6,033 nt of DNA from Geoglobus sp. (GTDB lineage Archaea > Halobacteriota > Archaeoglobi > Archaeoglobales > Archaeoglobaceae), in assembly GCA_015523645.1 (NCBI GenBank), contig WAJY01000235.1, positions 1 to 6,033 of the forward strand, in the 5' to 3' direction. Under the pieces are notes generated by a model. The model saw nothing but the letters and a program-made list of their open reading frames with translations. It had not been told where the DNA came from and ran no database searches. The translations under genes and the position numbers were made by a program. How positions within the stretch are numbered: the stretch's first letter is position 1; each line of letters opens with the position of its first letter. Positions 3,670 to 6,033 of the stretch are shown piece after piece.

Positions 3670-4215
3670 TCAGCTATAAATATCATACCTCTCGGTTATC
3701 TTTATTGCTCCCGATACATCCAAGCTTGGATAGACGTATGCTTTTGCTGTGTAGAAGAACTCCTTGCCAAGTGGGGCTTCCTTTTCCCTCACGTCAATGA
3801 CATAATCAAAAAGATCCTTTAATGCAATTATCTCCTTTATCTCCAACATGTCTCTGTATATGAAGTTAAAGGTCTTTATGTTGTCGTCCAACACCAGTCT
3901 TATCAGGGCTTCGGTTGAATGAACTCCCAAAAGGCTCTGAAAATGATAGCCATAGGAGATGATTATTTCCCTGTCAATGTCATCATAGCTTGTAAAAACC
4001 TTTCCCACATCCTTAGGTGCGATCACGCTGAAGATTCTAAAAAACTTCTCAAGCCTTTTTTTCCCGAGCTCATTGAAAACGAACCAGCCTATCTTTTCTC
4101 TTGTGAACTTCTCTGCAATGAGCTTTGACATGGCAAGAAAAACGTCATTATCTGGATAAAGAATCAGGACGTTTTCTCCTTCCTTCACCGAGCTAACAAT
4201 GGTTTCGATGTCCAT
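3670..4215 (-). CDS. Hypothetical 181-residue protein, possibly an inactivated KaiC/Rad55-like (RecA-superfamily) domain
   Basis: I do not recognise a named family with certainty. The protein is soluble and predicted alternating alpha/beta. It opens with a helix and the strand ENVLILYP (residues 14-21), followed by a helix and a second strand IGWFVFN (42-48). Later strands are EIIISYGYHF (83-92) and FDYVIDV (136-142), then a C-terminal beta section ending IKITERYDIYS (171-181). The overall order, and especially the ending, recall KaiC/Rad55-type ATPases, which commonly finish with an ITxxGIxVY-like strand. However, no GxxxxGK[ST] Walker A follows the first strand, so if the relationship is real the domain has lost ATP binding. 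The ATG at 4215 lies about 27 bases downstream of a strong TATA box with no Shine-Dalgarno site, indicating leaderless transcription. The gene follows the CDIN1-like gene by 64 bases. Confidence 0.7.
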   Translation of the reverse strand: MDIETIVSSVKEGENVLILYPDNDVFLAMSKLIAEKFTREKIGWFVFNELGKKRLEKFFRIFSVIAPKDVGKVFTSYDDIDREIIISYGYHFQSLLGVHSTEALIRLVLDDNIKTFNFIYRDMLEIKEIIALKDLFDYVIDVREKEAPLGKEFFYTAKAYVYPSLDVSGAIKITERYDIYS

Positions 4216-4279: not shown

Positions 4280-5227
4280 TCAGTCGAAAATTATTGTTTT
4301 GAAGCCCATGTTTCTGAGAACTCCTCTCAGCTCTCTGCTCCATCCAGAAATCACAACATTCCCCTTGATTGAATCAAAGAGATAAAAGATTTCATGGAGA
4401 AACTGCTTCGACTTCAAAACATCACTCTGCCAGTAAAAAACATCTGTTTCAAGAGACTCTGCAAGTTCTTCAGCCTTTTTGTTTGCAAGAAAAACCTCCA
4501 TGTTTAAAAGAAACCTCTTTGCCTTGTTTTCAACAAACCTGCAATCCTTAATCAACGCATTGGAGCTAAGCTCATCTATCTTTCCTAACCAGTAAACAAC
4601 AACTCCATCTCCATAAAGCTCGATGTATCTATCATACTGCTTTTTTGAGTAGAATCTGTGTAGTCTCAAGTCGCCAAAGAGTGCCTTGCTCTCTATCCAT
4701 TTTACCTCCCTTCCATCAATCCTCAGTTTATCCTCGATGTAGAAATCTGGAGTTTTGCTTGCAGGTCTGAGCATGTTCTCATCCTTGAATTCAACGTTCA
4801 TTTTTTCCAGAAACTGCCTGATCATCTCCTCCCCAACCCTGCCTCTCGCAAACTGGTTTCTTATAGCAATTGGCGAGTATATGAAATCCTTGTAAATCGC
4901 ATCCCATATCATGTCCTGAAACTCGCTTCTTTCCGGATTTGAAAGCGAATTTGCTATTTCTTTATTAGACATGCCCAGTGATTTCATCAAAAGTCTTATC
5001 CTCATCACAGGAGGAAGTCTAAGCCAGTTTGGTATCTCTCTATGCTTCTCCCAGTGATTTGCGATCTCGTGAAGTCTTGATGCATAAAGGTGGTATCTCC
5101 TTTTAACGTTCTCAATTCTTTTCTGTATTAAAATGCTGAAAAGCATCCCTCTTGGCTTTTTGAATCTCTTGAAGTCACTAAAACCCTTCAGCTCCTTTCT
5201 TATTCTGAAAAACTCTTCAGCCTTCAT
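4280..5227 (-). CDS. Archaeal CDIN1 (C15orf41)-like protein with TPD-type PD-(D/E)xK nuclease domain
   Basis: The 315-residue protein looks like a colinear homologue of human CDIN1, the codanin-1 partner mutated in congenital dyserythropoietic anaemia type I. That rests on recall of the human sequence, not an alignment. The N-terminal half is helical and basic, with a helix-turn-helix-like stretch at about residues 72-99. The nuclease-like core follows: GRVGEE (129-134), the family-defining TPD (159-161) and WIESKALFGD (177-186). Glu133, Asp161 and Glu179-x-Lys181 form a complete PD-(D/E)xK set. The next segment, GDGVVVYWLGKIDEL (206-220), also matches the human protein. Roughly 90 further residues seem longer than in the human protein. 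A nuclease acting on branched or structured nucleic acid is plausible but unproven. The ATG at 5227 overlaps the upstream NMD3-like gene by 11 bases; an in-frame TTG at 5233 is an alternative start adding two residues. Confidence 0.87.
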   Translation of the reverse strand: MKAEEFFRIRKELKGFSDFKRFKKPRGMLFSILIQKRIENVKRRYHLYASRLHEIANHWEKHREIPNWLRLPPVMRIRLLMKSLGMSNKEIANSLSNPERSEFQDMIWDAIYKDFIYSPIAIRNQFARGRVGEEMIRQFLEKMNVEFKDENMLRPASKTPDFYIEDKLRIDGREVKWIESKALFGDLRLHRFYSKKQYDRYIELYGDGVVVYWLGKIDELSSNALIKDCRFVENKAKRFLLNMEVFLANKKAEELAESLETDVFYWQSDVLKSKQFLHEIFYLFDSIKGNVVISGWSRELRGVLRNMGFKTIIFD

Positions 5228-5483
5228 TCTCAATCCTAACCGAATACGTGAAGAGCCATCTTACTCTCCCCTTTCTCAATCCAGCATATTTTGTGCTTGA
5301 CTTGACTTTGAATTTTCTTAATCTTTTTAGCCTAGAAATGAACCTTCTTGCTGAGTTAACGTCCTCAAAATAGACGTCCAGCCCATGTTTATTTCTCATC
5401 ACAGAAATTCCTTCAAATTTTTCAATGAACCTCTCAATTCCCGAAATGTTGCCTCTGAGCTGTATCAACGCTGGGTGCTTCAC
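5217..5483 (-). CDS. Small stand-alone protein resembling the C-terminal part of NMD3
   Basis: NMD3 binds the large ribosomal subunit and, in eukaryotes, is its nuclear export adaptor. This 88-residue, very basic protein resembles only a C-terminal region of NMD3: an opening IQLRGNISGIERFI (residues 7-20), then NKHGLDVYFEDVNSARRFI (31-49), where NMD3 has a GLDFYF-type strand followed by an alanine-containing helix, then a basic segment with KSSTKYAG, and finally FTYSVRI (78-84), like the FTYSVEI ending I recall from yeast. The N-terminal CxxC zinc ribbons of full NMD3 are absent, and no upstream codons could supply them because a divergent gene begins 40 bases away. The start is a GTG at 5483 without Shine-Dalgarno, about 25 bases after a TATA-like element. 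The stop overlaps the CDIN1-like start, so the two are probably co-transcribed and translationally coupled. Family assignment rests on motif resemblance. Confidence 0.7.
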   Translation of the reverse strand: MKHPALIQLRGNISGIERFIEKFEGISVMRNKHGLDVYFEDVNSARRFISRLKRLRKFKVKSSTKYAGLRKGRVRWLFTYSVRIENEG

Positions 5484-5492
5484 AGTGAAAGG

Positions 5493-5500
5493 TTAATATT
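5493..5500 (+). promoter_or_regulatory. TATA box for the plus-strand recombinase-like gene
   Basis: TTAATATT is centred about 27 bases before the ATG at 5524, with no Shine-Dalgarno sequence between them (the bases before the ATG are pyrimidine-rich). This is a leaderless-type promoter inside the 40-base divergent region. Confidence 0.55.
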
Positions 5501-5502
5501 CC

Positions 5503-5514
5503 GGTATTTCTTAA
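5503..5514 (-). promoter_or_regulatory. TATA-like element for the NMD3-like/CDIN1-like pair
   Basis: The minus strand reads TTAAGAAATACC, centred about 25 bases upstream of the GTG at 5483. It lies beside the box used in the other direction (5493-5500), so the two transcription complexes would compete for space. The match to the archaeal box A is moderate. Confidence 0.4.
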
Positions 5515-5523
5515 TTTCCTTTA

Positions 5524-6033
5524 ATGAGAAAAACTCTTGTTGAGATTGAAGAAGACATGCAGTACATTAACATTGCATCCAGAAGAAGTCTCTTTGATCA
5601 TGCACTGATAAGAGTAATCCTTTCGTCCCTTGCAGAAAAAGATGAGCTTCTGAATTTGAGAAAGAGAGATGTCGTTGTTTTGAATGAAGGAGACGAGCAA
5701 ATACATTATCTTTATCTGAGGAAAGGTGGAAGAGTGAGAAAGGCACCAATTGATTCTAGAACCTATCAGATTTTGACAAGCCTAACCACAGAAATTTCGG
5801 GAAAGGAGGAAATATTCAGAGTTTCTGAGAGAGAGTTAAATCAGATAGTAATGAAGTACTCTCCAAAAAACAGGAAATACGATGCAGAAAGTCTGAGAAG
5901 GGCTGTGATAATGATCTTGGAGGATAACTTGCTTGGAAAGAGCTACAAAAGCGTTTGCTCTTCCGACATCAAAGAGCTTTACGACTTCATGTCAGAATTT
6001 CATCCGATGTTTTCTGGGATGTGGGATTTGGAG
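5524..6033 (+). CDS. Tyrosine-recombinase-fold protein with degenerate catalytic site, C-terminus beyond the window
   Basis: 170 codons are open to the window edge from the ATG at 5524. The architecture recalls the catalytic domain of phage-integrase/Xer tyrosine recombinases without the usual N-terminal core-binding domain. FDHALIRVILSS followed by DELLNLRKRDVVV (residues 24-52) matches the helix, TGLRxSELLxL turn and strand of that fold. A beta-hairpin with KGGRVRKAPI (67-76) matches the KGxKxRxVP segment. VSERELNQIVMKY (100-112) and AESLRRAVIMIL (121-132) match the HxLRHTFA helix. Critical residues differ: catalytic Arg I aligns with Glu38 and the HxxR His with Glu122, although Arg125 and Lys67 remain. 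No LGH motif follows. It is therefore unlikely to be an active recombinase and may be a DNA-binding or regulatory derivative. The fold is inferred from pattern only. Confidence 0.6.
   Translation, partial: MRKTLVEIEEDMQYINIASRRSLFDHALIRVILSSLAEKDELLNLRKRDVVVLNEGDEQIHYLYLRKGGRVRKAPIDSRTYQILTSLTTEISGKEEIFRVSERELNQIVMKYSPKNRKYDAESLRRAVIMILEDNLLGKSYKSVCSSDIKELYDFMSEFHPMFSGMWDLE

Follow-up and report, generated by a model that had tools for sequence, protein, structure and literature searches.

A free-standing NMD3-type domain gene paired with a CDIN1-type predicted nuclease gene in Archaeoglobaceae

The locus and its two proteins

We analysed a stretch of 6,033 nucleotides from Geoglobus sp. (contig WAJY01000235.1 of assembly GCA_015523645.1; the whole stretch is called the window below), part of a 1.71 Mb draft genome. 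On its minus strand, a gene for a small protein related to NMD3 runs into the start of a gene for a protein of the type of human CDIN1 (C15orf41). Protein searches gave Geoglobus proteins as the closest named relatives of the window proteins. We find that the two genes form a real gene pair that recurs across the family Archaeoglobaceae, and that both family assignments are correct. The features are as follows, with protein lengths in amino acids (aa) and invariance referring to 48 aligned proteins.

5217..5483, minus strand: free-standing NMD3 eL22-like domain gene, 88 aa, GTG start at 5483, TGA stop at 5217
4280..5227, minus strand: TPD/CDIN1-type gene, 315 aa from the ATG at 5227 (317 aa from the TTG at 5233), PF14811 match of 122.7 bits
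5217..5227, minus strand: overlap of the two frames, 11 bases (17 if TTG 5233 is used), from the frame coordinates
4553..4921, minus strand: TPD domain of the CDIN1-type protein (PF14811 match)
4829..4831, minus strand: Glu133, invariant, presumed from the pattern to be the first acidic residue of PD-(D/E)XK
4745..4750, minus strand: Pro160-Asp161 (TPD motif), invariant
4685..4693, minus strand: Glu179-Ser180-Lys181 (E-x-K), Glu and Lys invariant
4283..4519, minus strand: C-terminal region of the CDIN1-type protein, diverged here, in place of the DUF488-like domain of some relatives
5484..5523, no strand: gap of 40 bases before the divergent gene, candidate promoter site of the pair
5524..6033, plus strand: divergent neighbour (cluster c2), running off the window

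The 88-aa protein matches the NMD3 family PF04981 with 35 bits (cut-off 24.9) over profile positions 182–243 of 243, and its relatives span positions up to 145–243. It has both the sequence and the predicted fold of the eL22-like domain of NMD3, but its length leaves no space for the two treble-clef zinc fingers and the eL31-like, SH3 and OB domains that NMD3 carries besides (PMC6579518; this and the other papers given by PMC number are cited from excerpts). The assignment to NMD3 made in a first-pass annotation of this DNA thus stands, narrowed to the eL22-like domain only. With its pI of 11 the protein is strongly basic; it aligns to the NMD3 of its own genome without a gap in the hairpin and has 10 of 16 strongly conserved residues in common with it (Q8, R10, G34, D36, Y38, A45, K61, S63, G72 and F78), whereas it deviates from it at the conserved H3, N43, R46, S50 and Y66. 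We considered whether the small gene could be a degraded or split NMD3 and rejected this, since the genome also encodes a complete NMD3 (a 339-aa frame) on a different contig and 65 of the 392 genomes surveyed in the phylum have the small family. What the small gene encodes is a single eL22-like domain derived from NMD3, which is extra to the full NMD3 and no substitute for it. NMD3 is ubiquitous in archaea, where the mechanism of its release is described as unknown (PMC8481954), and in the excerpts of the literature on archaeal NMD3 and on archaeal CDIN1, TPD or PF14811 that we consulted, neither a loose NMD3 domain nor such a gene pair is described.

The CDIN1-type protein exceeds the cut-off of the TPD family PF14811 (27 bits) by a wide margin and has its E...PD...ExK pattern intact, which bears out its earlier naming as CDIN1-type. 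The columns of E133, P160-D161, E179 and K181 are also invariant in 15 rows that include Methanosarcinaceae and ANME-2 family members, and from these conserved PD-(D/E)XK residues we take the protein to be a predicted nuclease. The AlphaFold2 model has a pLDDT of 95.6. Its core has structural neighbours that include AF1548, EcoT38I, FokI and Bax1, DNA nucleases whose active-site pattern it shares, and we take most of the top neighbours to be PD-(D/E)XK nucleases. A sequence search of solved structures returned no CDIN1 relative, the single weak row being an alanine racemase, and Foldseek with CDIN1 gave no significant match. Hjc, which is named among the PD-(D/E)XK nucleases in PMC7261414, is not among the listed structural neighbours of the core, although absence from this list excludes nothing. 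For the 142 residues at the N-terminus the model shows helices throughout, and no convincing family match was obtained there; for human CDIN1, N-terminal helix-turn-helix domains have been stated (PMC7261414).

Unlike CDIN1/C15orf41, with which it shares the TPD domain and the active-site pattern, the archaeal protein carries an extra C-terminal region at the place of the DUF488-like domain. DUF488 (PF04343) is matched at E up to 0.1 in 7 of the 48 aligned CDIN1 proteins, and the tail of the window protein, searched alone, matched 0 families, DUF488 included. In Archaeoglobaceae CDIN1, DUF488 is seen as a fused and often diverged C-terminal region; in Candidatus Pyrohabitans (L259:2654-3067) it is a separate gene downstream of CDIN1 that overlaps it. 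DUF488 is said to belong to a rhodanese-phosphatase superfamily with predicted activities on nucleic-acid ends, which we do not use as evidence.

The overlap of 11 bases (17 with the TTG) had been pointed out before, and the coordinates reproduce both figures. The TTG at 5233 was rejected as the likely start because the 11-base overlap given by the ATG at 5227 recurs in all but one of the six further genomes in this genus, the exception having 4 bases. Overlap by itself is ordinary: in 50 fetched Archaeoglobaceae loci, the window included, 105 of 258 other same-strand neighbour pairs (41%) overlap, compared with 21 of 32 cases of this pair, with starts set mechanically and overlaps hence inflated. 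What stands out is the retention of the pair across 11 genera. The suggestion that both genes share one promoter could not be substantiated, as only the 40-base gap to the divergent gene is seen, and inspection by eye of the upstream stretches in 14 loci gave no clear common box, several of these stretches having been placed by mechanical rather than true starts.

Conservation of the pair and other gene neighbours

The small gene and the CDIN1 gene are adjacent, with the small gene always first, in 33 of the 50 Archaeoglobaceae genomes that have both, representing 11 of 13 genera, so the adjacency proposed from the window extends beyond one species. The gap in adjacent pairs ranges from -41 to +351 bases, and in four genomes (g3, g9) 74 to 351 bases lie between the two genes while the adjacency is still kept. 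The genes are not adjacent in G015-G017, G021, G034-G038, G040 and seven genomes of g13. One genome counted (G029) has small-gene matches in two frames, which may reflect a broken or misread gene, and several of the surveyed genomes are fragmented. No downstream neighbour of CDIN1 is common to more than two genera, and the divergent c2 gene upstream of the small gene is common to six. On the CDIN1 tree the adjacency changed at least four times, where the tree covers 50 of the family's 51 genomes with CDIN1 (the adjacency in G008, which is absent from it, was taken from profile searches), G047, without a small gene found, is scored as non-adjacent, and the CDIN1 frame of G036 is cut by a contig end. 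Since the deepest split of the family on this tree (g4 and g11, which are never adjacent, versus the rest) is weakly supported, gain and loss of the adjacency are indistinguishable.

Within the class, TPD is found in 51 of 59 genomes and the small family profile A1 is matched in 54 of 59. Of the 392 phylum genomes, 114 have TPD and 65 have the free-standing small family, the latter counted from matches of at least 63.9 bits, with complete NMD3s scoring 63.6 or less; remote versions of either gene would escape these counts. Two frames, of 74 aa in G090 (51.6 bits) and 139 aa in G321 (44.8 bits), were left out of the 65 and may be further or partial copies. A protein search with a broad alignment gave short relatives whose named rows belong to Archaeoglobales, Syntrophoarchaeum, Alkanophagales and Methanocellales. 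Both genes occur together in 54 genomes, namely 50 Archaeoglobaceae and four of the ANME-2 family f31, and in none of the latter four are they adjacent; there they are placed on separate contigs and have neighbours of their own. The small gene occurs without a detected CDIN1 in 11 genomes, two of which are Archaeoglobaceae drafts of 68 and 76% completeness, and TPD without a detected small gene in 60, which are 59 Methanosarcinaceae and G047 (a 78% draft). The pairing is thus seen in one family only, with the genes apart elsewhere, and on this evidence neither gene requires the other, because each is found without its partner across the 392 genomes. PMC7092493 gives archaeal CDIN1 relatives from Euryarchaeota only, and describes Codanin-1, the partner of human CDIN1 in published assays, as younger than CDIN1.

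We also surveyed the neighbours of CDIN1 more widely, adding to the loci already fetched the best 80 of 397 relatives, a set biased to Methanosarcinaceae as its first row was one. The counts given here come from the 14 largest neighbour classes, the family of a cluster having been taken from one or two of its members, and they are loci rather than genomes where 43, 24 and 14 are given, since some genomes appear twice (L178/L229, L177/L247); the gene list showed no CDIN1 frame for L199 and L256. In 43 Methanosarcinaceae loci (L170, L172-L176 and 37 of L204-L254) an HhH-GPD gene stands directly upstream of CDIN1 on the same strand, overlapping it in 33 when starts are set mechanically. These loci are assigned by organism name or by the family code f5, which we equate with Methanosarcinaceae on account of many loci so named that have the same neighbours. 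The HhH-GPD and CDIN1 pair resembles the one in Archaeoglobaceae in that CDIN1 closely follows a smaller partner gene and mostly overlaps it, but the partner there belongs to a DNA-glycosylase family and not to NMD3. The NCBI model nearest to one of these HhH-GPD proteins is 3-methyladenine glycosylase, at 115 bits, below the 192-bit cut-off. In a Methanococcoides genome (L238:4326-5789) a single 487-aa frame joins HhH-GPD and CDIN1; it differs by an 8-base gap from two relatives with overlapping separate frames, and as it comes from one metagenome-derived genome it is a weak observation.

The remaining neighbours of CDIN1 are diverse. In 24 loci, mostly of Methanosarcina, another gene without a family lies upstream of CDIN1, mostly more than 100 bases away; Methanosarcina acetivorans is among the species with the TPD domain. 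In this upstream place the gene for the release factor aRF1 is found in 14 ANME-2/Methanosarcinales loci, mostly with small gaps, an archaeal RecJ-like gene in eight Archaeoglobaceae, 166–178 bases off, and in three genomes a gene with a TGT/PUA domain, which we take to be archaeosine-synthase-like. Two Archaeoglobaceae genomes have the order Nth-like gene, small gene, CDIN1. A MutS-family gene lies near CDIN1 in L255 (by cluster also in L259), not tightly. The neighbours of CDIN1 elsewhere are therefore divided between DNA base repair and translation, with both represented.

The small gene in turn is found behind an OBG-type GTPase gene in seven loci (g5, g12), behind an MptE-like gene in seven g13 loci, and 40–45 bases upstream of cluster c62 in two f2 loci. 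In all three f14 loci fetched (L157, L158, L159) it follows an Ssb-like OB-fold gene with which it shares 8 bases, the family of that gene having been read on one of the three; no CDIN1 was found in the f14 genomes.

Possible functions of the pair

We tentatively favor a reading, possible though short of probable, in which the pair is an operon specific to the Archaeoglobaceae lineage that holds a likely DNA-damage nuclease and an independent small protein likely to bind the large ribosomal subunit, with no obligate complex between them. The overlap suggests that the two genes would be co-transcribed and translationally coupled as one operon. Damaged DNA would be the target of the predicted nuclease, as is suggested by the HhH-GPD genes of Methanosarcinaceae and the Nth-like and RecJ-like genes of Archaeoglobaceae beside its gene, while the homology of its domain suggests that the small protein would bind the large subunit on its own. 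An exchange of neighbours, be it the NMD3 domain, the glycosylase, the RecJ-like protein or the release factor, would then alter the expression of CDIN1 and not what it cuts. As three distinct types of repair enzyme recur next to CDIN1 and the largest set is tight, we lean modestly towards DNA repair over translation as its setting. A ribosome link is likely not the original or only job of CDIN1, because the Methanosarcinaceae CDIN1 directly follows a glycosylase-family gene.

Several observations weigh against this preference. Translation genes adjoin CDIN1 as well, namely aRF1 (at least two of the genomes being seen twice among its loci) and the presumed archaeosine-synthase-like gene. The link to RecJ-like genes is loose because of the distance between the genes, and Methanosarcina itself has the unassigned upstream gene and no glycosylase gene next to CDIN1. 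An Nth-like gene stands beside the pair in only two of the 59 genomes of the class, though 54 of them have HhH-GPD relatives, and the Methanosarcinaceae protein belongs to an HhH-GPD subfamily other than Nth-like, which weakens the repair link. The pair is furthermore kept more widely in Archaeoglobaceae than any other neighbour there, beyond what shared expression would need. For human CDIN1, the excerpt of PMC13370696 gives no published nuclease activity, and that of PMC7261414 reports it as inactive, alone or with Codanin-1, on the DNA and RNA tried, which were plasmid, linear and branched DNA and simple RNAs.

The first-pass annotation had proposed that the ancestral CDIN1 works in ribosome or RNA processing with the small protein targeting it. 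In its elaborated form, the small protein would be a plug for the P site that brings the nuclease to the large subunit, where rRNA, tRNA or mRNA of defective particles would be cut. We regard this as rather unlikely, although the small gene is the most widely conserved neighbour of CDIN1 in Archaeoglobaceae, the small protein retains most of the conserved residues of its own NMD3 with the hairpin ungapped, and aRF1 and presumed archaeosine-synthase-like genes adjoin CDIN1 in other lineages. In yeast, the eL22-like domain of NMD3 fills the P site and reaches into the peptidyl-transferase centre (PMC6579518; PMC6393466), and a common origin has been proposed for Codanin-1 and the CNOT1 protein of the CCR4-NOT deadenylase (PMC11911400). 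Against it, each gene is found without the other, none of 62 CDIN1 matches carries an NMD3 label, so no fusion is seen, and the small gene also stands directly behind OBG-type GTPase, MptE-like and Ssb-like OB genes. With the pairing in one family only, the genes apart outside it and the other neighbours split between repair and translation, the step to an ancestral role is unsupported, and a ribosomal ancestral CDIN1 targeted by the small partner is weakly supported. The narrower version, that the domain docks the nuclease on large subunits with an unfinished or damaged peptidyl-transferase centre, seems to us distinctly unlikely. If true, quality control of the large subunit would have in archaea a nuclease arm made with a loose NMD3 domain, and this version would explain the inactivity of human CDIN1 on naked DNA and RNA, the substrate being a ribosomal particle presented by a partner.

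It is also unlikely that the pair only reflects a compact genome, in which an operon formed once in the family and was kept since splitting overlapping genes is costly, without any common function. The frequent overlap among other neighbours of these loci and the repeated changes of adjacency on the CDIN1 tree fit such a scenario, but CDIN1 does not retain its other neighbours, the gene downstream being common to at most two genera as against 11, and the adjacency persists in the g3 and g9 genomes despite their gaps. The recruitment of an NMD3-derived domain to DNA repair, as a basic DNA- or RNA-binding subunit acting with CDIN1, is in our view improbable. In its favor are the order with Nth-like, the overlap with the Ssb-like gene, the high pI and the five deviating conserved residues; against it are a conserved core that is still that of NMD3, the fact that OB-fold proteins may bind RNA and the limitation of such a context to two lineages.

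The wider survey of neighbours sharpens the question of which of them names the substrate of CDIN1. For this human anaemia protein, the archaeal neighbours suggest substrates outside those tried in the assays described in PMC7261414, namely the large ribosomal subunit and the products of an HhH-GPD glycosylase, abasic or alkylated DNA. As the archaeal proteins are small, both ideas lend themselves to direct tests. Archaeal ribosome biology would moreover gain a new component with a loose NMD3 eL22-like domain.

Further features of the window

In 16 of 49 loci, from six genera, c2 and the small gene are arranged head-to-head, also where CDIN1 is elsewhere, and a c2 relative gave a faint XerA-like match far under its cut-off. 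Behind CDIN1 lies gene c4 (3670-4215), which among the loci fetched adjoins CDIN1 in this genus only and is present as tandem copies in the six other genomes of the genus. On the plus strand, two overlapping frames at 1273-2867 are presumably pdxS and pdxT, and a tRNA-Ser (CGA) is found at 134-219.
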